This document shows positions 478 to 42,498 of a DNA stretch of 64,000 nt, one piece after another (position 1 is the first letter of the stretch; each line of letters opens with the position of its first letter). The DNA comes from Streptomyces sp. Q6. Lineage in GTDB: Bacteria > Actinomycetota > Actinomycetes > Streptomycetales > Streptomycetaceae. The position numbers and the translations under genes are program-made. The notes under the pieces are model-generated. The model did not search any database. It saw only the letters and a list, made by a program, of their open reading frames with translations, and had not been told where the DNA came from. The stretch is taken from the NCBI RefSeq assembly GCF_036967205.1, contig NZ_CP146022.1, positions 7,316,001 through 7,380,000 of the forward strand. Direction: 5' to 3'.

Positions 478-1956
478 GTGGATACAGGCGCGGCACACGG
501 GCCGCGGGGCGTCCCGGTGCGCCTCGTGACGCTCCTCGCGAAAGAACTGATCGCACTGGGATGCATTCGCGATGCCGGTCAGCGTTCCCTGTTCATCGAG
601 CTCGTCGCCTCGGAGACGGGTCTCGAAGTGAGCGAGCGCGGCCTCGAACCGCGCGCCGAGATGGTCGCCCTGCTGAACAAGGTCCTGCCGCACGAGCGCG
701 GCCTGCCCGCGCTGAAGGGCGCGGTCGAGGCCCTCGCGTCGCCGGAGGCGGCCGAGAGCCTGGCCCGCATCGCCGTGCGCGAGGCGCGCGGTGTGGAGAC
801 CCGGGGCACTCCGTCGTTGCAGCCGGTGCTCAGCGTCAAAGTCGCCCGCCAGGCACGCGAGTTACTGGCCTCGGGCAGCCCCGTTCCGCGCGCCGCGCTG
901 CACACCGCGCTCGCCCGGGAACTACGCATCGAACTGCCCGACTGCGACGACGCCGTGGACTTCTTCGACCATCTGCTGGAGCAGAACGCGCAGTACGACG
1001 GGCTGCCCCCGGTGGTCGTCCTCGTCGAGGTGGCCGCCGACCTCGGCGCCGCCCGCGCCCCGGAACTGCGCGCCTGGTCGGACGGTTGGGCCGAGGACGC
1101 CGGACACGAGGCGACCCTGGCCGAGCGCCGGGAGCGGATCTCCGGGCGGGCCGCGGTCGACCCGACCGTGCCACGCGCCCTCGTCGTCATGATCGACCCG
1201 GCGGACGACAGCTCGGACCGGGTCTTCGTACGGCACTGGGTGAACGCGGCGGCGGGCATCTGGCAGCCGATCGCCCTCGGCGTGGAGTCCGCCACGCTCG
1301 ACACCCTCGCCGCCGTCGTCGACCGGGCGCTGCGCCACGGCGAGGCCCAGTGGGCGCACCGCCCGGACGACGGACCCGTGCACATCGAATTCGTCCTGCC
1401 GCACGCCCTGTTGAACCACGACATGGCCCGCCTGGAGATCGACAGCGACACCGCGCCGCTCCCGGTCAGCCTGCGCTACTACGTGCATCTGCGCAGCCTC
1501 GACCGGATGCGCGCCCGCGACCCGGCCCAGCTGCGCCGCTGGCGGGCCCGCTGGGGCACCTTCCAGTCGGCGACCGCCGCCGAGGCCTACCGGTGGAGCG
1601 CCCAGGGGCCGCTCGACCTCGGCCGCTGGCGCGCCCGCCTCGCCGCGCGGCCGGAGAAGACCGCCGTGATCCTCCAGCACCCCGCCGTGCGCGAGCAGGG
1701 CCTTGAGGCGCTGGCCGCCGCGCTCGCCGAGGGCGTCGGCCTCGCCGCCTGGGACCGGCGCGAGAACATGCCGGGCTCCGTCGAGGTGCTCCAGCTCATC
1801 CTCGGCACGTCCCCCACCCAGCTGCCGGCCAAAGTCCACCAATTGCGCACACAGGCGGAGACGGACGATGTGGGACCGCTCCTGGTGGGCAGACATATCG
1901 CGTTCCTGTGGGACGACCCCAACCGCCTGGTCGACTGTGAGGAGATGCCGGCATGA
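478..1956 (+). CDS. VMAP-type protein (vWA-MoxR associated conflict system) with N-terminal effector-associated-like domain
   Basis: First gene of the 478-9689 operon. Residues about 12-100 are a helical, EAD-like module (LIALGCIRDAGQRS region). The middle carries a VMAP-M-like segment. The C-terminal half has VMAP-C features, ALVVMIDP near residue 230 and HIEFVLPHALLNHD near 300. In the published vWA-MoxR-VMAP conflict systems, VMAP is thought to link a MoxR ATPase and a vWA protein to an effector; no enzymatic role is claimed. I prefer the GTG at 478 because GGGGG lies about 8 nt upstream; a GTG at 451 is in frame but has no ribosome site. The stop overlaps the next ATG (ATGA at 1953-1956). 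A rare TTA leucine codon at 862-864 suggests bldA control. Confidence 0.75.
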   Translation: MDTGAAHGPRGVPVRLVTLLAKELIALGCIRDAGQRSLFIELVASETGLEVSERGLEPRAEMVALLNKVLPHERGLPALKGAVEALASPEAAESLARIAVREARGVETRGTPSLQPVLSVKVARQARELLASGSPVPRAALHTALARELRIELPDCDDAVDFFDHLLEQNAQYDGLPPVVVLVEVAADLGAARAPELRAWSDGWAEDAGHEATLAERRERISGRAAVDPTVPRALVVMIDPADDSSDRVFVRHWVNAAAGIWQPIALGVESATLDTLAAVVDRALRHGEAQWAHRPDDGPVHIEFVLPHALLNHDMARLEIDSDTAPLPVSLRYYVHLRSLDRMRARDPAQLRRWRARWGTFQSATAAEAYRWSAQGPLDLGRWRARLAARPEKTAVILQHPAVREQGLEALAAALAEGVGLAAWDRRENMPGSVEVLQLILGTSPTQLPAKVHQLRTQAETDDVGPLLVGRHIAFLWDDPNRLVDCEEMPA

Positions 1957-2999
1957 CGGAGCAGTACGGTGCCGCCGGGGCGCCGCCCGCCTGGCGTGTG
2001 TTCCGGGCCGCCGGTGACCGGGCCCCGGTCGGCCAGGGACCCCGGTTGCCCGACCCGCCGCAGTGGCGCCGCTTCGCCGGCGGCCCGCCGATCCCCCTGC
2101 CCGATCTCGACGACACCCGGGCCGCAGAGCGCCGCCTGGGCGAGGCCCAGGACCTGGTGCAGCTGCGCGACGAGGAGATCGACGTCGTGAACGCGGCGAT
2201 CCTGCTGCGCCGCCCGCTCCTGGTGACCGGGCCGCCCGGTGTGGGCAAGTCCACCCTCGCGTACCTCATCGCCCAGGAACTGGGCCTCGGCCGCGTCCTC
2301 CAGTGGGGCATCGTCTCGCGCAGCAGGCTGTCCGGCGGACTCTATTCGTACGACGCGATCGGCCGCGCCCAGGCCGTCGCCGCCTGGCGGGCGGGCGCCG
2401 ACCCCGGCCAGGACGGTGAACTGCCGCCGCGGATGGGTGACTTCCTCACCCTCGGGCCGCTGGGCACCGCGCTCCTCCCGTATGAACAGCCCCGTGTCCT
2501 GCTCATCGACGAACTCGACAAGTGCGATGTCGACCTGCCCCACGACCTGCTGCACGTGATGGAGAACGGGTCCTACGAGATCCCGGAACTGATGCGCAGC
2601 GCCGAACCCGAGGCGAGCGTGTTCACCGACGACCCGGGGGTGCGGACCACGGTGCGCCACGGCCGGATCGAGTGCCGCGCGTTCCCGATCGTCGTGATCA
2701 CCAGCAACGGCGAACGCGAGTTCCCGCTGCCGCTGCGCCGCCGCTGCCTCCCGCTGGAGCTGCGGCTGCCCTCGCGCGAACAGCTCGTCGCGATCGTGTC
2801 GAGCCATCTGCGCGGCAGCGAGGACGTCGTGGGCCCCCTGCTCGACCAGTTCGAGCGCCGGGTGAAGGACGGAGGAACCCACTCGGTCGACCAACTCCTC
2901 AACGCCGTCCAGCTGGTGACCTCGCGTGGTTTTCAGCACGACACCCACGGGCGTAAGCTCGTCGAGATGCTGCTGCGCGACCTCGCGAAAGGCCGCTGA
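1953..2999 (+). CDS. MoxR-type AAA ATPase
   Basis: A 348-residue AAA+ ATPase. Walker A is GPPGVGKST at about residues 93-101, Walker B is VLLIDELDK at about 182-190, and the sensor-1 region VVITSNGEREF lies near 247, followed by arginine-rich PLRRRC. This layout fits the MoxR branch, whose members act as chaperone-like remodelling ATPases paired with vWA-domain proteins. It is translationally coupled on both sides: ATGA overlap with the VMAP gene and a TGATG junction with the next gene. In this neighbourhood it is probably the NTP-dependent switch that couples VMAP to the vWA-like/STAND protein. The N-terminal 60 residues are proline-rich and probably disordered. Confidence 0.85.
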   Translation: MTEQYGAAGAPPAWRVFRAAGDRAPVGQGPRLPDPPQWRRFAGGPPIPLPDLDDTRAAERRLGEAQDLVQLRDEEIDVVNAAILLRRPLLVTGPPGVGKSTLAYLIAQELGLGRVLQWGIVSRSRLSGGLYSYDAIGRAQAVAAWRAGADPGQDGELPPRMGDFLTLGPLGTALLPYEQPRVLLIDELDKCDVDLPHDLLHVMENGSYEIPELMRSAEPEASVFTDDPGVRTTVRHGRIECRAFPIVVITSNGEREFPLPLRRRCLPLELRLPSREQLVAIVSSHLRGSEDVVGPLLDQFERRVKDGGTHSVDQLLNAVQLVTSRGFQHDTHGRKLVEMLLRDLAKGR

Positions 3000-5900
3000 T
3001 GACCGGCTTGCCCAGGGAGCGTGCACCCGACCCGAGCGACGGCGGACACGGCGAGGCCACCGGGCACGACGAACCGGACTGGCGCGATCTCGCGGACTCC
3101 GCCTGGCTCGCGGCCGCGTGGCTCGCCTCAGGACGGCGCGACCCCGCGGAATCGCATCGGACGGAAGCGGATCATCCGGATGGCCCGGCGGAGCGGGACG
3201 AGATCCCGCCGCCGCGCTCCGCACCCGTTCGACCTCCCACCCCGCCCTCATCCCTGCCCGGGTCCCGGGCCACACCGTCCGCCCCCGACGCGGACGAGGA
3301 GTCGCACGACATCCGTATGCCCCTGTTCAAGTCCGCCCCCGAAGGCGCGGGCGCCGAATCCGTCTTCCAGCTGCCCCCGCTCCCGCCGCCCGACCCGCCG
3401 CGACCCCTGCGGCTCGCCCGTGCCCTGCGCGTACTCGGCCGCCGGGTGCCCTCGCGCACCCTGAACCTCCTCGACGAGGAGCGCACCGCCGAGCACGGCC
3501 TCAGCGACGGGTTGTGGATCCCGTACCTGCGACCGGAGCGGGAACCCACGTTCGACCTGGTGTTCCTCGTCGACGACACCCTCACCATGCGGGCCTGGCG
3601 CGGCACCGTCCGCCGTATCGCCGAGGAGGCCACGCAGAGCGGTGCGTTCCGTGACGTCCGTACCGTGCGCGTCTGCGTCCCCGCCACAGGACCCGCCGTC
3701 CTGCGCTGGCCCGGCGGCCGCACCGGCGACCCGCGGGAACTGCTCGACGGCAGCGGCAGGCGGCTCTGCCTCGTGGTCACCGACGGACTCGGCGCGGGCT
3801 GGGCCACCGCCGGCGCCGACACCCTGCTCACCCGGCTGGCGGGCGGCGGACCGACCGCCGTCGTCCACCTGTTACCGCCCTATCTGCGCCACCGCTCCTC
3901 GCTGTACCCGTTCCGCGCGCAGCTCGGCGCGGCCGGATTCGGCGCGCTCAACCGGCAGTTGACCTGCCGGCCACCGCACCCGCTCGCCGACCCGCTGCCC
4001 GAACCGGACGACGGCGGCGTCCCGGTGCCCGTGCTCAGCGCGCACCCCGCCTCGTTCGCGGCCTGGGCCGACCTCGTCACCGGCGAACCCGGCGTCCGGC
4101 GCACCCTGCCCGTCGTGCTCGCCGGCGGCCTCGCCAAGGGCGCCCCCGCGCCCGGACTGCGCACCCCGAGGATCGACGGCCCGCGCGCCGCGGCTGCCGT
4201 CGTCGCCCGCTTCCTCGGCCTGGCCAGCCCGATCGCCCGGCACCTCGCGCTGCTGCTCGCCGTGATCCCGCTCGACTTCGACCTCATCGAGGAGCTGCGC
4301 GAGCGCGCCGTCCCCGAAGCGGGCCCCGACCACGTCGCCGAGGTCATGATGGGCGGCCTCATCGACTGGGACCACGACGGCGGCGGCAGCCCCGAGTTCG
4401 CGGACGGCGTCCGCGAGGCGCTGCTCGCCACCGGGAACCGCAGCCAGCTGGCCCACGCCGTCGACCTGCTGGCCGACCTGCGCGCGGGCCAGGGCGCGGC
4501 CGCCCCGCTGCGAGCCGCCGTACGCGACCCCGAGCGCACGGCGCTGCCGGACCCCGAGACCTCGGGCCGCCCCTGGCTCCGCGTCGAACTGGCCGTGCTG
4601 CGGGCCCTGTCCGGGCCGCACGCCCGGCGCGCCGCGCGGATCATGGCGGGCATCACCTCCGGCGCACCCGTCGCGAACGGGGGTGGTCCGGGGGCGCACA
4701 GAGATAACGGTGCGCCTGGTGGGGAAGGGCTGGTTGCGGACAGCACCACCGAACCAGGAGACGATGTGCCGCCGACGGCGAGGCCTGAGACAACCGAACA
4801 CACTGATGCTGGGAAGGCTGACACGACCATGGACCTCAAGGCTCCCGAACACCGCTTCGTCCGGAGCGGTCAGCCGAAGATCATGGGAAATGTGCCGCCC
4901 AAGAACCCCAACTTCACGGGGCGCGAGATCCTCCTGGAAGCGGTCGAGGAACAACTGCGGCAGAAGGAGACCGCCGCCGTCCTGCCGCACGCGCTGCACG
5001 GCATGGGCGGCGTCGGCAAGTCACAGATCGCGATCGAGTACGTGTACCGGCACAGCGCCGAGTACAACGTGATCTGGTGGGTCCCCTCGGAGCGCGAGTC
5101 CCTGATCCTCGCCTCCCTCGCCGAACTCGCCGGCGTCCTCGGCCTCAACACCGGCCCGCAGGCCAACACCGCGGTGCCCGCCGTCCAGGAGGCGCTGCGC
5201 ACCGGGAAGCCGCACGACAACTGGCTGCTGATCTTCGACAACGCGGAGGACATCGACGCGGTCCGCGCCTACTTCCCCAGCGGCGGCCCCGGGAAGATCA
5301 TCGTCACTTCGCGCAACCGCGACTGGGAGCGGGTCGCCACGCCGCTCAGCGTCGACGTCTTCGACCGGTCCGAGTCCATCGCCCTGCTCCAGCGGCGCGC
5401 GCCCGATCTGAGCGACCAGGACGCCGACCAGCTCGCGGAGGCCCTCGGCGACCTCCCGCTCGCCATCGAGCAGGCCGGAGCCTGGCACGCCGCCACCGGC
5501 ATGCCCGTGGCCGAGCACCTCGAACTCCTCGCCCAGCGCCGCCTCGAGATCCTGGACCTGGACCCGAACCCGGACTACCCGGTGCCGGTCGCCGCGGCCT
5601 GGAACCTCTCCCTGGACCGCCTCGCGGAGGAGCACCCGGCGGCCCGTCAACTCCTGGAGATCTGCGCCCTGATGGCGCCCGAGCCGATCCCGCTGAGCCT
5701 GCTGCGCGGCGGCCGGAACGTGGTGATCAGCCCCGAACTCGACCCCGTCCTGCGCGACCCGGTGCTGCTCGCCCGCGCCACCCGTGAACTCAGCAAGTTC
5801 TCGCTGATCCGCCTCGACCACAAACGCGGCACGCTCCAGATGCACCGTCTGATGCAGAACGTGCTGGCGACCGGCCTCGACGAGGCCGCGGAGGCCACGA

Positions 5901-7351
5901 TGCGCAAGGCCGCCCACCAGCTCCTCGCCACCGCCAAGCCCGGCGAGGGCGCAGCGCCCGAACTCTGGCCCACCTACCAGGCGTTGCTGCCGCACGTACA
6001 GGCGTCGGGGGCGGTGCGCAGCTCGGACCCCTGGGTCCGCGACTTCGTCTACGACGTGGTGTTCTTCCTCTACTTCTGGGGAGCCCACGACACCTCGATG
6101 AGCATGGCCAGGGAGGCCTGGACGGCCTGGCAGGCCCAGTCGGGCGACGACGACATCCTGGTGATCAGGATGGCGAAGTTCCTGGCGTTCATGCTGCGCA
6201 AGTTCGGCAGCCCGGCAGAGGCGATGCGGCTCAACGAGACGGCCCTGGAGCGCTCCCGGGCCGGGCACGTCCCGGACGAGGAGCTCATCGGCTCCATGTG
6301 GCAGATGGCCATGGCCCAGCGTTATCAGGGCGACTTCGAGGCCGCCCGCGGACTCGACGAGGAGGCGCTGGCGATGGCCCGGCGACTCTTCGGCCCGGAC
6401 GACCCGCAGACCCTGGAGGCCGCGCACAACTACGGCGTCACCCTGCGCTGCTGCGGAGCGTTCGGCGAGGCGCGCGCCGTCGACGAGGAGACGGCCCGCC
6501 AGTTCGACCTGCTCTACGGGCCCACGAACGGACTGACGCTCAACTCGCTCAACGGCCTGGCGATCGACATCCGCGAGTCCGGCGACTACCGCGGTGCCCA
6601 CCTCCTCCAGGAATCCACCTACGAGACGTACGTGACGAACTTCGGACCCGACAACGCCGCCACGATCAAGGCCGCCCGCGACCTCGCCGTGTGCCGCCGC
6701 CGTGCCGGAGCCGTCGCCGCGGCGCGCGAGCTGACCGAGGACACCCTGGTCCGCTTCACCGAGCGCTACGGAACGCAGTACGAGGACACCCTGGCCACAC
6801 AGATGAACGCGGTGGTCGACCGTCGGCTCAGCGGCGACCTGGCGCTCTCGCGCGAACTGGGCGAGAAGAACGTGACGCGCTACCGCACCGTGTTCGGCGA
6901 GAGCCACGCGAGCACGCTGAGCGCCCTGGTCAACCTGGCCGCGACGCTGCGCGCCCTGGGTGAGATCACCGCCGCCGAGCAGCACGACGTCGAGGCCGTC
7001 GAGCAGTTCACGGCGACCGTCGGGGAGCGGCACCCCTTCACCCTCACCGCGCGTCTCGGCCGAGCCAACGACCACTACGCGCGCCTCGGGTTCGCGGCGG
7101 CCCGTGCCGTCGACGAGGCCGTGCTGCCGCTGCTGACGGACGTGTTGGGTCCGGAGCATCCCCTGACCCTGTCCTGCACCGCCAACCTGGGCCTGGACCT
7201 GCGCGGCCTCGGCGAGACGGCCGAGGCGGACCGGCTCCACGCGCAGGCGGTCGAGGGCCTCACCCGGGTCCTGGGCGTCGAACACCCCTGGCGGATGGCG
7301 GCCCAACTGCACCAGCGCATCGAGGTGGACATCGCCCCGCTGCCGATGTGA
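2999..7351 (+). CDS. Giant SAV_2336/vWA-like + NB-ARC (STAND) + TPR protein, FxsT-like
   Basis: A 1450-residue multidomain protein. Residues 1-130 are a low-complexity tail. A vWA-like SAV_2336-type domain follows, with FDLVFLVDDTLTMR near 184-200 standing where a MIDAS would be. A linker precedes IMGNVPPKNPNFTGRE near 628, the hallmark entry to the NB-ARC of FxSxx-system TPR proteins (FxsT). Walker A is GMGGVGKSQ near 668 and Walker B is WLLIFDNAE near 742. Tetratricopeptide repeats fill about 1050-1440. STAND proteins of this kind are nucleotide-gated sensors that oligomerise when the repeats detect a ligand. It starts by a TGATG junction with the MoxR gene. An in-frame TTA codon at 3872-3874 suggests bldA dependence. 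Confidence 0.85.
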   Translation: MTGLPRERAPDPSDGGHGEATGHDEPDWRDLADSAWLAAAWLASGRRDPAESHRTEADHPDGPAERDEIPPPRSAPVRPPTPPSSLPGSRATPSAPDADEESHDIRMPLFKSAPEGAGAESVFQLPPLPPPDPPRPLRLARALRVLGRRVPSRTLNLLDEERTAEHGLSDGLWIPYLRPEREPTFDLVFLVDDTLTMRAWRGTVRRIAEEATQSGAFRDVRTVRVCVPATGPAVLRWPGGRTGDPRELLDGSGRRLCLVVTDGLGAGWATAGADTLLTRLAGGGPTAVVHLLPPYLRHRSSLYPFRAQLGAAGFGALNRQLTCRPPHPLADPLPEPDDGGVPVPVLSAHPASFAAWADLVTGEPGVRRTLPVVLAGGLAKGAPAPGLRTPRIDGPRAAAAVVARFLGLASPIARHLALLLAVIPLDFDLIEELRERAVPEAGPDHVAEVMMGGLIDWDHDGGGSPEFADGVREALLATGNRSQLAHAVDLLADLRAGQGAAAPLRAAVRDPERTALPDPETSGRPWLRVELAVLRALSGPHARRAARIMAGITSGAPVANGGGPGAHRDNGAPGGEGLVADSTTEPGDDVPPTARPETTEHTDAGKADTTMDLKAPEHRFVRSGQPKIMGNVPPKNPNFTGREILLEAVEEQLRQKETAAVLPHALHGMGGVGKSQIAIEYVYRHSAEYNVIWWVPSERESLILASLAELAGVLGLNTGPQANTAVPAVQEALRTGKPHDNWLLIFDNAEDIDAVRAYFPSGGPGKIIVTSRNRDWERVATPLSVDVFDRSESIALLQRRAPDLSDQDADQLAEALGDLPLAIEQAGAWHAATGMPVAEHLELLAQRRLEILDLDPNPDYPVPVAAAWNLSLDRLAEEHPAARQLLEICALMAPEPIPLSLLRGGRNVVISPELDPVLRDPVLLARATRELSKFSLIRLDHKRGTLQMHRLMQNVLATGLDEAAEATMRKAAHQLLATAKPGEGAAPELWPTYQALLPHVQASGAVRSSDPWVRDFVYDVVFFLYFWGAHDTSMSMAREAWTAWQAQSGDDDILVIRMAKFLAFMLRKFGSPAEAMRLNETALERSRAGHVPDEELIGSMWQMAMAQRYQGDFEAARGLDEEALAMARRLFGPDDPQTLEAAHNYGVTLRCCGAFGEARAVDEETARQFDLLYGPTNGLTLNSLNGLAIDIRESGDYRGAHLLQESTYETYVTNFGPDNAATIKAARDLAVCRRRAGAVAAARELTEDTLVRFTERYGTQYEDTLATQMNAVVDRRLSGDLALSRELGEKNVTRYRTVFGESHASTLSALVNLAATLRALGEITAAEQHDVEAVEQFTATVGERHPFTLTARLGRANDHYARLGFAAARAVDEAVLPLLTDVLGPEHPLTLSCTANLGLDLRGLGETAEADRLHAQAVEGLTRVLGVEHPWRMAAQLHQRIEVDIAPLPM

Positions 7352-7452
7352 CAGCGGGGTGAGCACAGGCGTCGCGGGCGACCGGCCGTAGCCGGGCCCC
7401 GCGGCGCACAGGGGCAGGGCGGGATTCGGGACCGGCACGGGGGCTGAACGCA

Positions 7453-8601
7453 TTGACCACGGTTGTCTTCATTCACGGTACGGGCGTCAGAGAGCCACGC
7501 TTCACGCACCTGCGCACCCGGGTCACCACGGGCATCGACGAGGTCGCGCCGCACGCGCGCGTCGTCCCCTACTACTGGGGCGAGGCGCACGGAGCCACGC
7601 TCGCGGCCGGTGGAGCGAGCGTGCCGGAAGGGCCCGGCGGCACCGGTCGTGGCCTCGACGACGGCGACGAGGACGAGACGGAGCGGTGGGCACTCCGGTA
7701 CGCGGACCCGGAGGCGGAACTGGCGCTGGCCGCGGTCGGCGCGGGGGCCACCGTCACGGCCCCCGGGTCGGCGTTCCCCGACGAACGGCCGCGCCGCCTG
7801 TTGCTGCGACTGGGCGACATCGCGCCGGAGTTGGGACCCGGTCTCACCGCGTGCGCGACAGCTCTCGCCCGTTCCCCGCTCCTGCCGCCCGCCGCCTCGG
7901 CCCTGGACGCCGACGAACTCGCCCGGGTGCTCGCCCGCGCCCTCGCCGCCGGCGTCATCGGCGCCGCCCTGGCGAGCGACGCGCCCGTCCTGTGCACGGG
8001 AGACGCGCGGGACGCGGCCGTCGACCGTATCGCCGAGGCACTCGGTGCCACACCCGCGGGCGCCGACCGCGGACTGATCCTGCGCGCCCTCAAGCGGCCC
8101 GCGCTCAGGGCCGGCTCACGGATCGCGGTACGGCGCCGCCGGGCGCTCACCGACGCCGCGCACCCCGCCGCGGGCGACATCCTGCGCTACCTGGCGCGCG
8201 GCGACGGCGTACGCCACGGCCTGCGCGAGCTGATCGCCGCGCAGCGGCCCCCGATCGTGCTCCTCGGCCACAGCCTGGGCGGCATCATCGCCCTCGACAC
8301 CCTGATCCAGGGCCCGCAGCCGGGCGTCGAACTCCTCGTCACGGTCGGCTCCCAGGGACCCTTCCTGTACGAGACGGGCGCCCTGCCCTCCCTCGACCAT
8401 CCGGCGGAGCTGCCCGCGCACGTCCCCGCCTGGCTGAACCTCTACGACGTCCGCGACCTGCTCGGCTACCGCGGCGCCCCGCTCTTCCCCGGCCGGGTCA
8501 CCGACATCGCGACCGACAGCCGGCAGCCGTTCCCCGTCGCGCACAGCGCCTACTGGGACGACCCGGCCGTCTACCGCGCCATCGCGGACCAGCTCCCGTG
8601 A
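7453..8601 (+). CDS. Alpha/beta hydrolase, putative effector of the STAND operon
   Basis: A 382-residue serine hydrolase. It opens with the beta-strand/oxyanion motif VVFIHGTGVREPRF, contains the nucleophile elbow GHSLGG near residue 272, and ends with HSAYWDDPAVYRAI, whose histidine is a plausible triad member. The start is a TTG at 7453 with a weak upstream GGGGG, 101 nt after the STAND gene. The stop overlaps the next gene's GTG (GTGA at 8598-8601), so it is cotranscribed with the caspase. Its substrate cannot be read; lipase-like and peptidase-like activities are both possible. Next to a STAND protein it is a candidate toxic effector. Confidence 0.75.
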   Translation: MTTVVFIHGTGVREPRFTHLRTRVTTGIDEVAPHARVVPYYWGEAHGATLAAGGASVPEGPGGTGRGLDDGDEDETERWALRYADPEAELALAAVGAGATVTAPGSAFPDERPRRLLLRLGDIAPELGPGLTACATALARSPLLPPAASALDADELARVLARALAAGVIGAALASDAPVLCTGDARDAAVDRIAEALGATPAGADRGLILRALKRPALRAGSRIAVRRRRALTDAAHPAAGDILRYLARGDGVRHGLRELIAAQRPPIVLLGHSLGGIIALDTLIQGPQPGVELLVTVGSQGPFLYETGALPSLDHPAELPAHVPAWLNLYDVRDLLGYRGAPLFPGRVTDIATDSRQPFPVAHSAYWDDPAVYRAIADQLP

Positions 8602-9689
8602 GGCACCCGGAGATCGACCCCGCTCGCGTGACGGCGCTCGTCGTCGGCATCGAACGCTACCGGGCCGGCGACACCTGGCGGCTGCCCGGACCCGCCCACG
8701 ACGCCCTGCGCTTCCACACCTGGCTGCGCGAGCGCGGCGTGCCCGAGCGCAACATCCTGCTGCACCTCGCGCCCGTCGACGACGAGCGGCCGTGGCCCGC
8801 GCACGAACCCGCCGACCACGCCACGCTGCGCGACGCACTCGTGCGCGAACTCCCCGCACGCCAGGGGGACTTCCTGTGGGTGTGGTGGGGCGGCCACGGA
8901 GTCCTCGACCAGGACGAGCGGATCCGTCTCTACTGTTCCGACGCCACCGCCGACGACCGACGCAATCTGGACCTGGAGTCCGCCCGCAGACGCCTGTCCA
9001 GCGACTCCCTCACCGGATTCGGGCGGCAGACCTGGGTCGTCGACGCCTGCCAGACCTTCGACGAGCGGCACGGCTTCCCGCACTCCCTGCCCACCGAGCA
9101 CCTCCCCGCGGGCGGCCGTACCGACGTGCACGAGCAGGCTCTGCTGCTGGCCGCGACGCGCGGGCAGCGCGCCGTCAACGACCCGGAGCGACGCACCGGA
9201 CTCTTCTCCGACCTCGTCCTCACCTCGCTCGCCCGGACCGGCGGCGGCGCGGCACCCGACCCGGTGCCGCTCTTCGCCGACGTGCGCGACCTGGTCGAGA
9301 AGGAGTGGAGTTCGGGACGCACCGAGCAGCTGCCGACACTGATCCTCAACCGGCCGGGACACGCGGAGACGGTGCGGCCGCGCCCCGTACGGGCCGCAGG
9401 CCGCGGCACCCTCGCGGCGCTCACCCGCGTCGTCGAGGCGCTCCTCGCCTATCCGCTGGCCCACAGCCTCGACGAGCGCCAGACCCTGGTGCTGCTGCTC
9501 GACCCGAGGCTGACCGCCCACATGCGGCGCAACCCCGCTCCACGCCCCGACCTGGTCGCCGTCGTGCGCGCCCACGGCACCCGGAGCGACGATCTGTGGA
9601 CCTTGTACGAGGCGGTCACCTCGCTCGACGACGACCCGGGCAGAGCCGCCGAACTCCGCGACGCGATCGAGGGGTTGGCGGCCGACTGA
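8598..9689 (+). CDS. Caspase-like protease with C-terminal effector-associated domain
   Basis: A 363-residue protein starting at a GTG that overlaps the hydrolase stop. The N-terminal caspase-like fold opens with TALVVGIERYRAGD. It shows the catalytic dyad: His100 in WWGGHGV and Cys151 in WVVDACQTF. From about residue 272 to the end is a helical module (LTRVVEALLAYPLAH) resembling effector-associated domain 2. EADs recruit effectors to conflict-system scaffolds by like-with-like pairing. The VMAP protein at the head of the operon has a similar module at its N-terminus, so the protease is probably the cleavage effector released or activated by the VMAP/MoxR/STAND switch. Confidence 0.8.
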   Translation: MRHPEIDPARVTALVVGIERYRAGDTWRLPGPAHDALRFHTWLRERGVPERNILLHLAPVDDERPWPAHEPADHATLRDALVRELPARQGDFLWVWWGGHGVLDQDERIRLYCSDATADDRRNLDLESARRRLSSDSLTGFGRQTWVVDACQTFDERHGFPHSLPTEHLPAGGRTDVHEQALLLAATRGQRAVNDPERRTGLFSDLVLTSLARTGGGAAPDPVPLFADVRDLVEKEWSSGRTEQLPTLILNRPGHAETVRPRPVRAAGRGTLAALTRVVEALLAYPLAHSLDERQTLVLLLDPRLTAHMRRNPAPRPDLVAVVRAHGTRSDDLWTLYEAVTSLDDDPGRAAELRDAIEGLAAD

Positions 9690-9836
9690 CCACCGCGCAC
9701 CCGACGGGAATCGGCCAACAGGACGTTCCCGATCTTCGGCCGGGTCTGCGGGTTCCGGGACCGGGCAAGCTTCGTCATGATGGATACAGGACGGCGGCGG
9801 CATCGCGTGCCGTCGTAGGTGAAGGGGGAGCACACC

Positions 9837-10028
9837 TTGAAAGAGCCGGTACGCGCCGACCGTCCGGCGGACCATGTGGAGTCGGACCTGGTGGACCTCA
9901 CCGCGGTCAGCATCGTAGAACTCCGCCGGGACCCGGCCCTCGCCCCCAACCGCAGACTCCTCGACGACACCCGCCGCCCCCGCAGCAACGCGATAGGGAG
10001 CGGCAACCCCCAGGGCCGGGCCGAGTAG
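9837..10028 (+). CDS. FxSxx-leader-like small peptide, candidate RiPP precursor
   Basis: A 63-residue peptide whose TTG start at 9837 is chosen for the GGGGGAG ribosome site at 9824-9830; a GTG at 9819 is in frame but lies before that site. The N-terminal part contains DLVDLTAVSIVELRR, close to the leader motif of FxSxx-COOH peptides (DLxGVSLxEL type). The C-terminal part is basic and polar (RRPRSNAIGSGNPQGRAE) and lacks the terminal FxSxx motif. It lies 3 nt upstream of an HExxH-type putative peptide hydroxylase, the expected modifying enzyme. Core boundaries and product are unknown. Peptide-like coding is plausible but short-gene prediction is uncertain. Confidence 0.6.
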   Translation: MKEPVRADRPADHVESDLVDLTAVSIVELRRDPALAPNRRLLDDTRRPRSNAIGSGNPQGRAE

Positions 10029-10031
10029 CAC

Positions 10032-11809
10032 GTGACGACACCGTCCGTGACCGGGCCCGGCGCACGGGCCGGCTCCGGTCACCCCGCGCTGCGCATGCCG
10101 GGAGCACTCTTCGACGAACTGGCCACCGGAGGCGGCTCCGAGCAGGCCGTGGCCTTCCTGGCCAGAGGTGAACGGACCCGACGTCTGCTCCTGCTGCGCG
10201 AGCTGCTCGACCGGCTCGACGAACTCCCGGGCCTTCTGGGCCCGTTGGGGGACAGTGCCGATGCGTGGGCCGCGGTCGAGGAGGCGGCGCGGCGGGCACC
10301 GGCCGCGGTGGACGCCCTGCTCATGAGCCCGCAGTGCGGAGCGTGGATCGCGCACGCGCTGCGCCGGCTGCACGGCGCAGCGTCCGGGCCGCCGCTGTGG
10401 GCGGACGTCGGACACCTCGTGTGCGTCGCGCTCGCCGCCTGCGTACGGAGCGGCGTCGATGCCGATCTGACGGTCCCCGCGCGGCACGGAGCGGTGAGCC
10501 TGCCCACGCTCGGACTCCTCCAACTTCCCCGGACCGCGCAGGAGTTCACCGCTGTGCGGGTCGCCGTACGCGCGGGACGGGTGGCGGCGGGGACGGTCGC
10601 GGTCCGCCCGCTCGCCGATGCCGAATCGCCGGTGTGGCATCGGCTGCGCGCCCTGGGGGGCGACGCCGTCCACCTCGACGACCTCGACCCCTACCGCGAC
10701 CTCGACGAACCCGTCGCCCCCTCCAGGCTGCCCGCCGAGGAGGTCGCCCACTGGGAGCGGGCGCTGGACGAGGCGTACGCCATCCTGCGCCGACCCGGGC
10801 GGGCGGGCGGTGTCGGGACGATCCGGCCCGGCGACATCACCCGTATCGTCCCCTGGGGTGTCGAGGACCGTGCCGGAGCGCGGCTGAGCGCCTCCACCGC
10901 GGACGCCTTCGGCTCCATGCTGGTGTCCCGTCCGCAGACCGGACTCGACCTCGCCGAGTCCCTCGTCCACGAGTTCCAGCACAGCAAACTCGGCGCGCTC
11001 CTCCATCTGTTCCCGCTGCTCGACGACGACCGGGCCGAGCGGTACTACGCGCCGTGGCGGGCCGACCCGCGCCATCTGTCCGGCCTGCTGCACGGCGCCT
11101 ACGCGTTCACCGGGGTCACCGGTTTCTGGCGGGCCCGCATCGGGGACCGCCGGGCCGATCCGGAGAACACGGCACCCTTCCATTTCGCGCTGCGCCGCCT
11201 GCAGACCCGCCTCGTGGTGCGCACGCTCGCCACCCGCGGCGACCTCACCCCGGCGGGCAGCCGCCTGGTGACCGGTCTCGCGGCGACGCTCGACGGCTGG
11301 CTGCGCGAGCCCGTGGACCCCGACGCGGGAGCCCGTGCGCGGGCGGCGGCCGTCAGCCACCGGGTCGAATGGCGGCTGCGGAACCTGCGCTGCGCGGCGG
11401 CCGAGCGCGCGGACCTGGACCGGGCCTGGCGGGAGGGCGCGGAAGCGCCCGTGGCCCGGCACGAGCCCGTCATCGTCCCGGGGGCGTCCGCCGTGCACTG
11501 GTCGGACGCGCGGGGCGGCCTGTATCTCGCGCCGCGGCCGGGGCCCGGCGCCGACGCGTGCCTCGTGGCGGGGACCCGGAGCGGGCGCGCGCCCTGTACG
11601 CGGAGCGTCTGCGGCAGGCGCCCGGCGACGCGCACGCCCTGGCGGGGCGGATGCTGGCCGAAGCGGGGGCGCGGCCGGGGCTGCGGCGGCTGCTCGCCCG
11701 GCCCGAGCGGGTCGCCGCGGCGTGGGCCGCGGCCGGGGTGGAGCCCGGGGACGCGGCGGGCACCGGCCGGGTGATGGGGTGGCTCTGCGGCGAAGGCCAA
11801 CGGGCGTGA
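10032..11809 (+). CDS. HExxH-type putative peptide beta-hydroxylase, apparent 1-nt frameshift near 11570
   Basis: The protein carries HEFQH at residues 313-317, the metal-binding HExxH of the alpha-ketoglutarate-dependent HExxH peptide hydroxylase family found beside FxSxx-type peptides. Translation from GTG 10032 is convincing to about residue 513 (VHWSDARGGLYLAP). After that the reading frame becomes arginine/glycine-rich nonsense and stops at 11774. The -1 frame restores a sensible tail (ERARALYAERLRQAPGD through VMGWLCGEGQRA) ending at 11809. A lost G in the GCGGGGAC run at 11569-11574 explains this. It is either a real lesion in the last 80 residues or a sequence error. The HExxH is upstream of the break, so activity might survive. 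Confidence 0.7.
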
Positions 11810-39822: not shown

Positions 39823-42498
39823 ATGACACAGGGACGGCACGCCGACGCCGCCTCTTCCGGCCCGCTGCTGTGGGAGCGGGAATCCGAACTCGAGGTCGCC
39901 GAGAGGGCGCTGGACGACCTGTGCGGGGACGCCGCCTCGTCCGGCAGCCTCGTCGTCTACAAGGGAGAGGCGGGCATCGGCAAGACCGCCCTGCTCTCCC
40001 GCGTGCACGACATGGCCAGGGGCCGGGCCACCGTCTGGTCCGCGCGCGGCGGGGAGACGGTCACCTCCGTCCCCTTCAACGTCGTACGCGGACTGCTCCA
40101 GCCCGCCCTCCTCGCGCTCTCCGAGGACGAGGCCCGCGAGTACTTCGGCGACTGGTACGACATCGCGGGCCCCGCCCTCGGGATAGCCGAGCCCACCGGG
40201 CGCCAGGCCGACCCGCAGGGTGTGCGTGACGGCCTCGTCGCCGCCGTGTCCCGACTGGCGCGGCTGCACTGGCCGTTGGTGCTGCTCATCGACGACGCGC
40301 ACTGGGCCGACCTGGAGACCCTGGAGTGGCTGGCCGCGTTCGCCGAGCGCCTCGACGACCTGCCGGTGCTCGTCGTCGTCGCCCAGCGCGACCCGGAGCA
40401 CGCGCAGGCGGCAGCCTGTCTGGACGCCGTGGCCGCCGCCGCCCGGCCCGGCGCCGCCAAGCTGCGCGCCCTCACCCCGGACGCCACCGCGGGCCTGACC
40501 CGCGCCACACTGGGCGCTCACGCCGACGACCCGTTCTGCCGCGAGGTCTGGGCGGTCACCGGCGGAAACCCGTACGAGACCGTCGAGTTGCTCGCCAAGG
40601 TGCAGGACAGCAGCCTCGCGCCCGAGGAGGAGTCGGCCGCCCGGCTGCGCGCCCTGAACCAGTCGGCGCGCGGGCGCGGGCTCGTCGCCCGCCTCGAAGG
40701 ACTCGGCACCGAGGCCACCCGCTTCGCCTGGGCCGCCGCCATCCTCGGCACCCGCATCGAGCCCGGCCTCGCGGCCCTGCTCGCCGGAATGAACCCGGAA
40801 CAGGCCGGGCGCTGCGCCGAGCGGCTGCGCGCCGCCCGCATCCTGACCGACGTCACGTACGGCACCGCGGACACCCTGGAGTTCGTGCACCCGCTGATCG
40901 CCTCCGCCGTCTACGACGCGATCCCGTCGGCCACCCGCACCGCCATGCACGGCCAGGCCGCGTGGGCGGTCACCGCATCCGGGCACGGACCCGCCGCGGC
41001 CTCCCGGCACCTGCTCGAAGTGCACCCGGACGACGACCCCGAACTCGTCGAGCAGATGCGGGCCGCGGCCAGCGAGCATCTCGCGGTCGGCGCGCCCGCG
41101 GCCGCCCGCCGCTGTCTGGAGCGCGCCCTCGCCGAACCGCCGCTGCCCGAGACGCGCCCGCACGTCCTGTACGAACTGGGCTGCGCCACCCTGCTCACCT
41201 CGCCCGCCACCACCATCAAGCACCTGGACGCGGCCCTCGACACGACACCCGGACTCGACGGGGACCAGCGTGTCGACGCCGTGTGCCGACTGTCCCAGGC
41301 CCTCGTCCACAACGACCAGCTGGAAGAGGCGCTGCGGCTCATCGACACCGAGGCCGAGCGGCTCGACCCCGGCCCCGCGCGGCTGCGTCTGCAAGCCGTG
41401 CACTTCATGTGGGAGGGCATCCACGCGGGCGAGGAGGACTCCCCGGGGCGCTCGCGCAACCTGGCCACCCTCGCCGACCGGCTCGGCGGCCGCGACAACC
41501 CGGAGCGGGTGCTGCTCATCCTGCGTGCCTTCGACGCGATGACCCGCGGGGAGAACGCGGAGGAGGTCGTCGAGCGCTGCGACCGCGCCCTCGTCAACGG
41601 CCGCCTCGCACCCGGACTCGGCTGGACCGACCCCGAATGGGGCTTCGAGGTTCTCGCCATGCTCGGCAGCGCCTACCTCTTCGCCGACCGGCTCGACCGC
41701 GCCGAGTCCCTGTTCACCGAGGCCGTCCGCGAGTACGAGACGGCCGGCTGGAGCGGCGGCCACCTCGCCATCGCGCACGCCTTCGTGGGATACGTCCACC
41801 GCAGACGAGGTCGCCTCACCGATGCCGAAGCGTTCCTGCGCGAGTCCCTGCGGCTCGCCGACCGCGTCGGGCACGGGCTGCCGATGCACTGGGACGCGGC
41901 GTGCATGCTCATCGACACGCTGCTCGCCCGCGGCAAGCCGGACGAGGCGCAGGACATCGCGGACCGCTACGCCTTCGGGCCGCCCTACCCGTCGACGATC
42001 GTGCTGCCCGACGCGCACTCGGTCCGCGGCCGGCTGCTCCTGGCCACCGGCCGGGTCGAAGAGGGCATCAACGAACTGGAGAGCGCCGCCAAGGCGTCCA
42101 TCGCGCGCGGCGGCCACAACACGATCATGGCGCCGTGGGCCCTCGACCTCGCTCGGGCGCTCGCCCTGACCGATCCGCGGCGCGCCGCCGAACTCGCCGG
42201 GGAGGCCCGCATCCAGGCCGAGCGCTTCGGCACGGACACGGCGATCGGCGAAGCGCTGCGCTGCGCGGCCTCGTTGGAGACCGGACAGAAGCAACTCACC
42301 CTGTACGCGAAGGCGGTGACGTATCTCGAAGCGTCGCCCTGCGCGTACGAGCACGCGCTGGCCCGCGTCGAGTACGGCATAGCGGGCCGCTCCCTCTCGG
42401 AGCTCAACCGCGGTCTGACGCTGGCCCGTTCGTGCGGGGCGGACGGGCTCGCGGCGCGGGCCAGGGAGGTCCTGGAGACGGGGCGGGGCCTGCGCTGA
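39823..42498 (+). CDS. Large LuxR-type (LAL) ATPase lacking a C-terminal HTH
   Basis: An 891-residue signalling ATPase. The N-terminal AAA domain opens with LLWERESELEVAERALDDL, has Walker A GEAGIGKTALL near residue 48 and Walker B LVLLIDDAHWADLETLEWL. A helical, TPR-like region fills residues 330-880. LAL regulators such as MalT end in a LuxR helix-turn-helix, but here the protein stops at VLETGRGLR and no HTH is readable in any frame of the next 360 nt. It may act as a signalling or inhibitory partner rather than a DNA binder. ATG 39823 follows GGAGGG with 6-nt spacing. Confidence 0.82.
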   Translation: MTQGRHADAASSGPLLWERESELEVAERALDDLCGDAASSGSLVVYKGEAGIGKTALLSRVHDMARGRATVWSARGGETVTSVPFNVVRGLLQPALLALSEDEAREYFGDWYDIAGPALGIAEPTGRQADPQGVRDGLVAAVSRLARLHWPLVLLIDDAHWADLETLEWLAAFAERLDDLPVLVVVAQRDPEHAQAAACLDAVAAAARPGAAKLRALTPDATAGLTRATLGAHADDPFCREVWAVTGGNPYETVELLAKVQDSSLAPEEESAARLRALNQSARGRGLVARLEGLGTEATRFAWAAAILGTRIEPGLAALLAGMNPEQAGRCAERLRAARILTDVTYGTADTLEFVHPLIASAVYDAIPSATRTAMHGQAAWAVTASGHGPAAASRHLLEVHPDDDPELVEQMRAAASEHLAVGAPAAARRCLERALAEPPLPETRPHVLYELGCATLLTSPATTIKHLDAALDTTPGLDGDQRVDAVCRLSQALVHNDQLEEALRLIDTEAERLDPGPARLRLQAVHFMWEGIHAGEEDSPGRSRNLATLADRLGGRDNPERVLLILRAFDAMTRGENAEEVVERCDRALVNGRLAPGLGWTDPEWGFEVLAMLGSAYLFADRLDRAESLFTEAVREYETAGWSGGHLAIAHAFVGYVHRRRGRLTDAEAFLRESLRLADRVGHGLPMHWDAACMLIDTLLARGKPDEAQDIADRYAFGPPYPSTIVLPDAHSVRGRLLLATGRVEEGINELESAAKASIARGGHNTIMAPWALDLARALALTDPRRAAELAGEARIQAERFGTDTAIGEALRCAASLETGQKQLTLYAKAVTYLEASPCAYEHALARVEYGIAGRSLSELNRGLTLARSCGADGLAARAREVLETGRGLR

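Follow-up and report, generated by a model that had tools for sequence, protein, structure and literature searches.

Why a bacterial operon of the VMAP conflict type should end in a small peptide gene and a gene for an HExxH enzyme, and what that enzyme would do to the peptide, is the question raised by seven plus-strand genes of Streptomyces sp. Q6. They lie between position 478 and about position 11809 of a 64,000-nucleotide stretch (contig 1, positions 7316001-7380000, G+C content 72%; hereafter the window) of the 8.95-Mb genome, and encode VMAP, a MoxR-type ATPase, a STAND protein with SAV_2336-N, NB-ARC and TPR parts, an alpha/beta hydrolase, a caspase-fold protease, a precursor peptide and an HExxH protein. 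We tentatively suggest, with confidence somewhat short of even, that the locus belongs to the RxD peptide subtype of the VMAP ternary conflict systems, in which the HExxH enzyme would oxidise the peptide tail, the modified peptide would be read by the NB-ARC/TPR part and a caspase recruited through EAD2 would act as effector. The gene set, its linkage, the folds, the intact active-site residues, the shared EAD2 domain and the tail motif all find support in sequences or models.

A system of this type has already been described, because Kaur, Burroughs, Iyer and Aravind (2020; PMC7159879) report an RxD peptide and a zincin together with fused NB-ARC/TPR. In their account, a small peptide together with a zincin-like ‘metallopeptidase’ is found in about 20% of the VMAP systems of actinobacteria. 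The peptide belongs to an FxSxx, an RxD or an acidic type; in the last two the vWA protein carries a fused NB-ARC/TPR, and a radical SAM gene is mentioned for the FxSxx and FtsH-associated types only. The locus in the window likewise consists of VMAP, MoxR and a vWA-type protein with fused NB-ARC (AP-ATPase)/TPR, has a zincin-like gene beside a small peptide, holds no radical SAM gene among its seven genes and pairs a caspase with an alpha/beta hydrolase, as was also noted there. We infer that the zincin of Kaur et al. is the present HExxH gene; the term HExxH itself is absent from their text.

The preliminary description had called the peptide FxSxx-leader-like, a label that has to be dropped, as the peptide is of the RxD type and ends in GRAE. 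The parts of FxSxx systems go by the names FxsA, FxsB and FxsT, which are also used in NCBIfam. With such systems the window shares an NB-ARC/TPR domain, and here the earlier claim of an entry typical of FxSxx-system proteins was borne out by a score of 847.6 bits against NF040586 FxSxx_TPR (cut-off 300). It differs from them in lacking an FxSxx C-terminus and FxsB, and in the fusion of NB-ARC/TPR to the vWA-type protein. The reported absence of a radical SAM/SPASM gene holds for the whole 8.95-Mb genome, in which no FxsB-type gene reaches the cut-off (best 29.1 bits, cut-off 370). Membership in the FxSxx systems was therefore rejected.

Counts made from either side speak for a link between the VMAP operon and the peptide/HExxH pair. 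The closest relatives by HExxH sequence are from Streptomyces. Loci were collected for the best 80 of 141 HExxH relatives, with up to 10 kb on either side. The count was confined to the 62 loci whose upstream flank reached at least 9.5 kb, the 18 with less being set aside. In these 62, NB-ARC/TPR was found in 59, SAV_2336-N in 58, MoxR in 57, caspase in 47, hydrolase in 44 and VMAP in 41, the VMAP gene being often situated at the edge of the fetched flank or outside it; the profiles were built from the same loci, and the count thus leans towards finding homologues. In the reverse direction, a SAV_2336-N search of 199 genomes of the genus gave, among the best places listed, 50 loci (the window apart) with an open frame of at least 1370 residues, for which up to 20 kb was fetched. 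NB-ARC/TPR is fused to SAV_2336-N in 18 of these, with HExxH near 17. In the other 32 it is unfused; HExxH occurs in five of them, each time next to a separate NB-ARC/TPR gene. Because some of the 50 loci share a genome or are closely related, they do not count as independent events. The fused locus without HExxH (L158) has a weak NB-ARC/TPR match (232 bits). Rare co-occurrence, which the preliminary description had taken as the outcome that would speak against it, thus did not appear (17/18 versus 5/32; 59/62).

The legend of Fig. 4C in PMC7159879 is ambiguously worded and can be taken to say that peptide-modification parts and trypsin or hydrolase-caspase pairings are mutually exclusive. In contrast to that reading, eight of the 17 fused loci that have HExxH combine the peptide pair with caspase and hydrolase, and the peptide of each of these eight ends in RAE or RAD.

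Several loci vary in arrangement. In L041, L044, L062, L065, L067, L072, L082, L089 and L112 the cassette is split by a Na+/H+ exchanger gene on the opposite strand (PF00999 in 9 of the 10 inserted genes scanned), which lies between the TPR gene and the genes after it; the parts of the cassette stay together. In L116 and L117, HExxH separates the best MoxR and SAV_2336-type matches from the best ones for VMAP and NB-ARC/TPR, suggesting a single peptide pair flanked by two core sets. L165 carries, besides the fused gene, a second NB-ARC/TPR gene (positions 5947-8478; 1363 bits), with HExxH on one flank and the hydrolase/caspase genes on the other.

The peptide has a conserved end. In 81 sequences (the 80 loci and the window), in which peptide frames were found by pattern, a homologous small frame precedes HExxH in 71; two of the ten pattern misses (L061 and L062) have a peptide with another tail. 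The conserved parts are the leader ESDLxDL, an RLL segment, two arginines between leader and core (each in 70/71) and the C-terminus, where [G/A]RA[E/D] closes 64 of the 71 peptides. Gly or Ala stands at position -4 in 68/71 and at position -5 in 22/71. As a control, only one of 692 C-termini of plausible longer frames from the same loci ends in this way, and that one may be a peptide frame. Divergence between the window peptide and its nearest relative, L039 (nonsynonymous, dN, 0.09; synonymous, dS, 0.29; 53 codons), and L040 (dN 0.22, dS 0.42; 53 codons) fits a translated frame. The tail agrees in kind with an R-x-D-type C-terminus beside a zincin-like gene, Glu replacing Asp in most peptides; this match rests on the description by Kaur et al.

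In a tree of 114 distinct HExxH sequences, a single clade of 78 leaves (support 0.957) takes in all 70 RA[E/D] tails, and the tail thus follows the enzyme lineage. The eight remaining leaves of the clade comprise five odd tails, two loci that gave no tail call and the second copy of the window (L001). Such a pattern is expected if the enzyme reads the tail; common descent alone would look alike. In a sister class (L124, L128, L130, L132 and L155) the HExxH gene and the core are in convergent orientation, neither caspase nor hydrolase gave a match, and the peptides have C-V-S at or near their end.

For the HExxH protein, a structure model and conserved residues show the fold and HExxH metal site of the alpha-ketoglutarate HExxH oxygenases, and we predict it to be a peptide oxygenase of this kind. 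The fold is common to the ChlB HExxH domain and SjiH (no publication on the latter was found in the literature search), and a small adjoining precursor gene is likewise a trait shared with these oxygenases. This sets it apart from the peptidase named in PMC7159879. Of the earlier term ‘hydroxylase’, the oxygenase fold is upheld by models and active-site residues. The preliminary description saw in a hydroxylated peptide a possible trigger or product of the system; the tail points to oxidative trimming and amidation no less than to plain hydroxylation.

The precursors PflA/PosA and PesA have an R-x-D-like C-terminal end, as the window peptide has in kind, and PesO, an HExxH enzyme, hydroxylates Pro just before the C-terminal R(V/T)DN of the nitrilobacillins (PMC13060819). 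By analogy, the RxD end of the conflict-system peptides may be the same sort of signal as the ARMD and R(V/T)DN ends. PflC/PosC and PesO, likened here by description and not by sequence, sit in clusters for ribosomally synthesized and post-translationally modified peptides (RiPPs), whereas the window enzyme is tied to a conflict system. A term search of PMC12636437, on PflC and PosC, showed none of the terms FxSxx, VMAP, Kaur, conflict or actinobact, and among the publications listed in the literature search none was seen joining HExxH peptide oxygenases to VMAP/FxSxx conflict systems.

VMAP matches VMAP-C (PF20028) with 113.9 bits (cut-off 27). The MoxR-type ATPase, whose gene overlaps that of VMAP, keeps Walker A K99 and Walker B D186/E187 in 57/57 aligned sequences; its bpMoxR match is below the cut-off. 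The STAND protein scores 400.8 bits against NF041121 (SAV_2336-N domain) and retains the P-loop K of NB-ARC in 65/66 aligned sequences. Its SAV_2336-N domain has conserved D192, T196 and T261-D262, which we take to be a metal-ion-dependent adhesion site (MIDAS)-like motif; no vWA profile matched it, and the earlier label ‘vWA-like’ is kept as a presumption from motif and context. All hydrolase/esterase profile matches of the hydrolase are under their cut-offs, and H-S-L-G-G is present in 48/48 aligned sequences.

That the fifth gene encodes a caspase-like protease, as claimed before, agrees with the fold model and the conserved His/Cys dyad. Among its best fold matches are a paracaspase and metacaspases; a sequence search against the PDB gave no match, so that only the fold model provided any, and folds that Foldseek ranks low could not have appeared. 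EAD2 (PF19956) is over its cut-off on both VMAP and the caspase, and EADs are homotypic adaptors according to PMC7159879. At L066 (positions 9289-9630) the EAD2 start of VMAP seems joined to the EAD2 end of the caspase; core genes were not found between, and peptide and HExxH are kept. To judge from its sequence, L066 seems to be a natural remnant, as if formed by deletion between the two EAD2 domains.

Table 1. Features of the seven-gene cassette (positions in the window)
Feature	Position	Strand	Basis or remark
VMAP	478..1956	+	Pfam VMAP-C, VMAP-M0, EAD2 (N-terminal, residues 24-95), all above cut-offs
MoxR-type AAA ATPase	1953..2999	+	AAA and AAA_5 over cut-off; Walker motifs
SAV_2336-N (presumed vWA) + NB-ARC + TPR protein, 1450 residues	2999..7351	+	NF041121, NF040586; NB-ARC, DUF7779, TPR
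Alpha/beta hydrolase, TTG start	7453..8601	+	G-H-S-L-G-G nucleophile elbow
Caspase-fold protease (His100/Cys151), C-terminal EAD2 (residues 279-357)	8598..9689	+	
Purine-rich ribosome-binding-like stretch	9821..9830	+	Read from sequence; 6 nt ahead of TTG start of peptide gene
RxD-type precursor peptide, 63 aa	9837..10028	+	Homologous frames before HExxH; dN and dS
Peptide C-terminal tail G-R-A-E, member of [G/A]-R-A-[E/D] motif	10014..10025	+	64/71 sequences; 1/692 control C-termini
Predicted alpha-ketoglutarate HExxH peptide oxygenase	10032..11774 (homologous C-terminus in frame ending 11809)	+	Frame shifts near 11567

VMAP has an alternative GTG start at 451. The preliminary description spoke of five coupled genes; the gene set is right, and the tight coupling does not extend to all five, as the first three genes overlap, 101 nt follow, and then hydrolase and caspase overlap. 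The 147-nt spacing ahead of the peptide gene was correct (9689 to 9837). Upstream of VMAP, a gene in the opposite direction appears from the sequence and its open frames. The cassette seems to end after the HExxH gene, because a LacI-type regulator and sugar-hydrolase genes lie downstream. Elsewhere in the window, positions 39823-42498 encode an AAA_16 plus TPR protein, apparently without relation to the cassette.

For the function of the locus we infer every step, the order of events and the trigger as follows. The 63-residue precursor would be bound by its conserved leader (ESDLxDL ... RLL), and the alpha-ketoglutarate HExxH enzyme would oxidise the [G/A]-R-A-[E/D] tail, most likely at Gly/Ala. 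This would cut off the tail and leave a C-terminal amide, and a side chain might be hydroxylated too. The clade of the window, with G or A before R, is in our hypothesis the part of the family best placed for such trimming and amidation. The NB-ARC/TPR arm of the vWA-type protein would then recognise the modified peptide, which, as a ligand or licence of the system's own making, would set the threshold of the MoxR-vWA switch. Upon a trigger, presumably a phage or other invader, VMAP would recruit the caspase by EAD2-EAD2 contact, and the protease and its partner hydrolase would damage or kill the cell.

A number of observations weigh against this reading. The HExxH gene of the window is frameshifted near its end by a single base, near 11567 at a run of G, whereas the frame stays open in all three relatives examined; the Streptomyces longispororuber homologue (L039) is an example of a gene that reads through. 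The tail share falls to 64/73 once L061 and L062 are counted. More distant HExxH peptides end in R-x-D without G or A before it (KRFD, SRLD, SRRFD, SRRLD, DRQD) or in unlike tails such as GGYST, GGYRRRR, NSWTA, DGDES, DECGR and LQPD; GRVD was also seen, and an FxSxx tail once. This hunt for distant peptides was incomplete, with 13 of 30 loci, the window (L170) included, giving a peptide-like frame with the leader pattern, and a stricter filter giving none in most loci. Moreover, PosC tolerates single changes of R, M or D in ARMD. Conservation of R-A-[E/D] therefore does not have to imply an identical reaction, and the PosC results consulted in PMC12636437 include none for Gly at the cut position. 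A separate NB-ARC/TPR gene occurs without HExxH in three regions (L139, L141 and L154). The EAD2-EAD2 pair gave no distance-correlation signal beyond shared ancestry (partial r 0.09, reached in 34 of 200 shuffles); the other eight part pairs gave partial r of 0.22 to 0.79, which shows joint inheritance only. The prediction that VMAP without a caspase loses EAD2 failed, as EAD2 is kept in 10/10 loci without a neighbouring caspase, compared with 24/25 loci with caspase and 5/8 further loci having no caspase match over 34 bits nearby. Finally, no experiment on any member was found among the publications listed in the literature search.

It is possible, if rather doubtful, that the HExxH enzyme makes no cut and is confined to beta-hydroxylation of a side chain (Asn, Pro or the terminal Asp/Glu), with R-A-[E/D] serving as a recognition handle like R(V/T)DN of the nitrilobacillins. 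The NCBIfam name of the family, peptide beta-hydroxylase, and the PesO reaction point in this direction; Pro occurs within residues -5 to -8 in 50/71 peptides, and the last residue, Glu or Asp in 66/71, might itself be the target. However, only a glycine is conserved in at least 80% of the 71 peptides between the R-x-R segment and the tail, so that no side-chain target in this stretch is common to most of them, and the strict G/A at -4 is given no role. The zincin of Kaur et al. (PMC7159879) was read as a peptidase, which would here hydrolyse the precursor and free a C-terminal peptide toxin or signal. PflC does act hydrolytically if the leader is missing (PMC12636437), but the oxygenase fold disfavours a peptidase, and we regard this reading as very improbable.

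The two near-invariant arginines between leader and core allow for another suggestion, namely that the peptide is an exported or toxic RiPP, with the caspase as its leader protease and not an executioner, and the VMAP/NB-ARC machinery regulating release. Metacaspases and paracaspases, to which the caspase model is matched, cut after basic residues. A peptide toxin was also considered in PMC7159879. Nevertheless, the arginines are kept in loci where no caspase was found beside the pair (e.g. L072, L073 and L082), and no exporter is among the seven genes, which makes this explanation quite unlikely. Hardly credible to us is an independent RiPP pair merely travelling with the VMAP operon: HExxH occurs without an intact core in 3 of 58 long-flank loci (the 62 less L114-L117), namely L047, L066 and L106, against the association with NB-ARC/TPR counted in both directions.

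A more far-reaching version of the oxidised-tail mechanism, which we consider unlikely, is an NLR-like sensor that makes its own amidated ligand. Here the iron oxygenase would remove the [G/A]-R-A-[E/D] tail by backbone oxidation, only the amidated peptide would arm the NB-ARC/TPR protein driving the EAD2-tethered caspase, and the supply of oxygen, iron and alpha-ketoglutarate would gate immunity.

Taken together, the original observation is right and belongs to a known class. The label FxSxx was mistaken, and the chemistry that seems likely has become specific enough for a direct test. The tail motif and the oxygenase fold give a specific prediction for the peptide of VMAP/FxSxx systems, i.e. 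loss of the last four residues, a C-terminal amide and a need for alpha-ketoglutarate, and the NB-ARC/TPR association points to that protein as the candidate reader of the peptide. The oxygenase reading would correct the peptidase label of the original description. The more far-reaching version, if true, would connect the amidation of a peptide with a bacterial immune switch of the caspase type.

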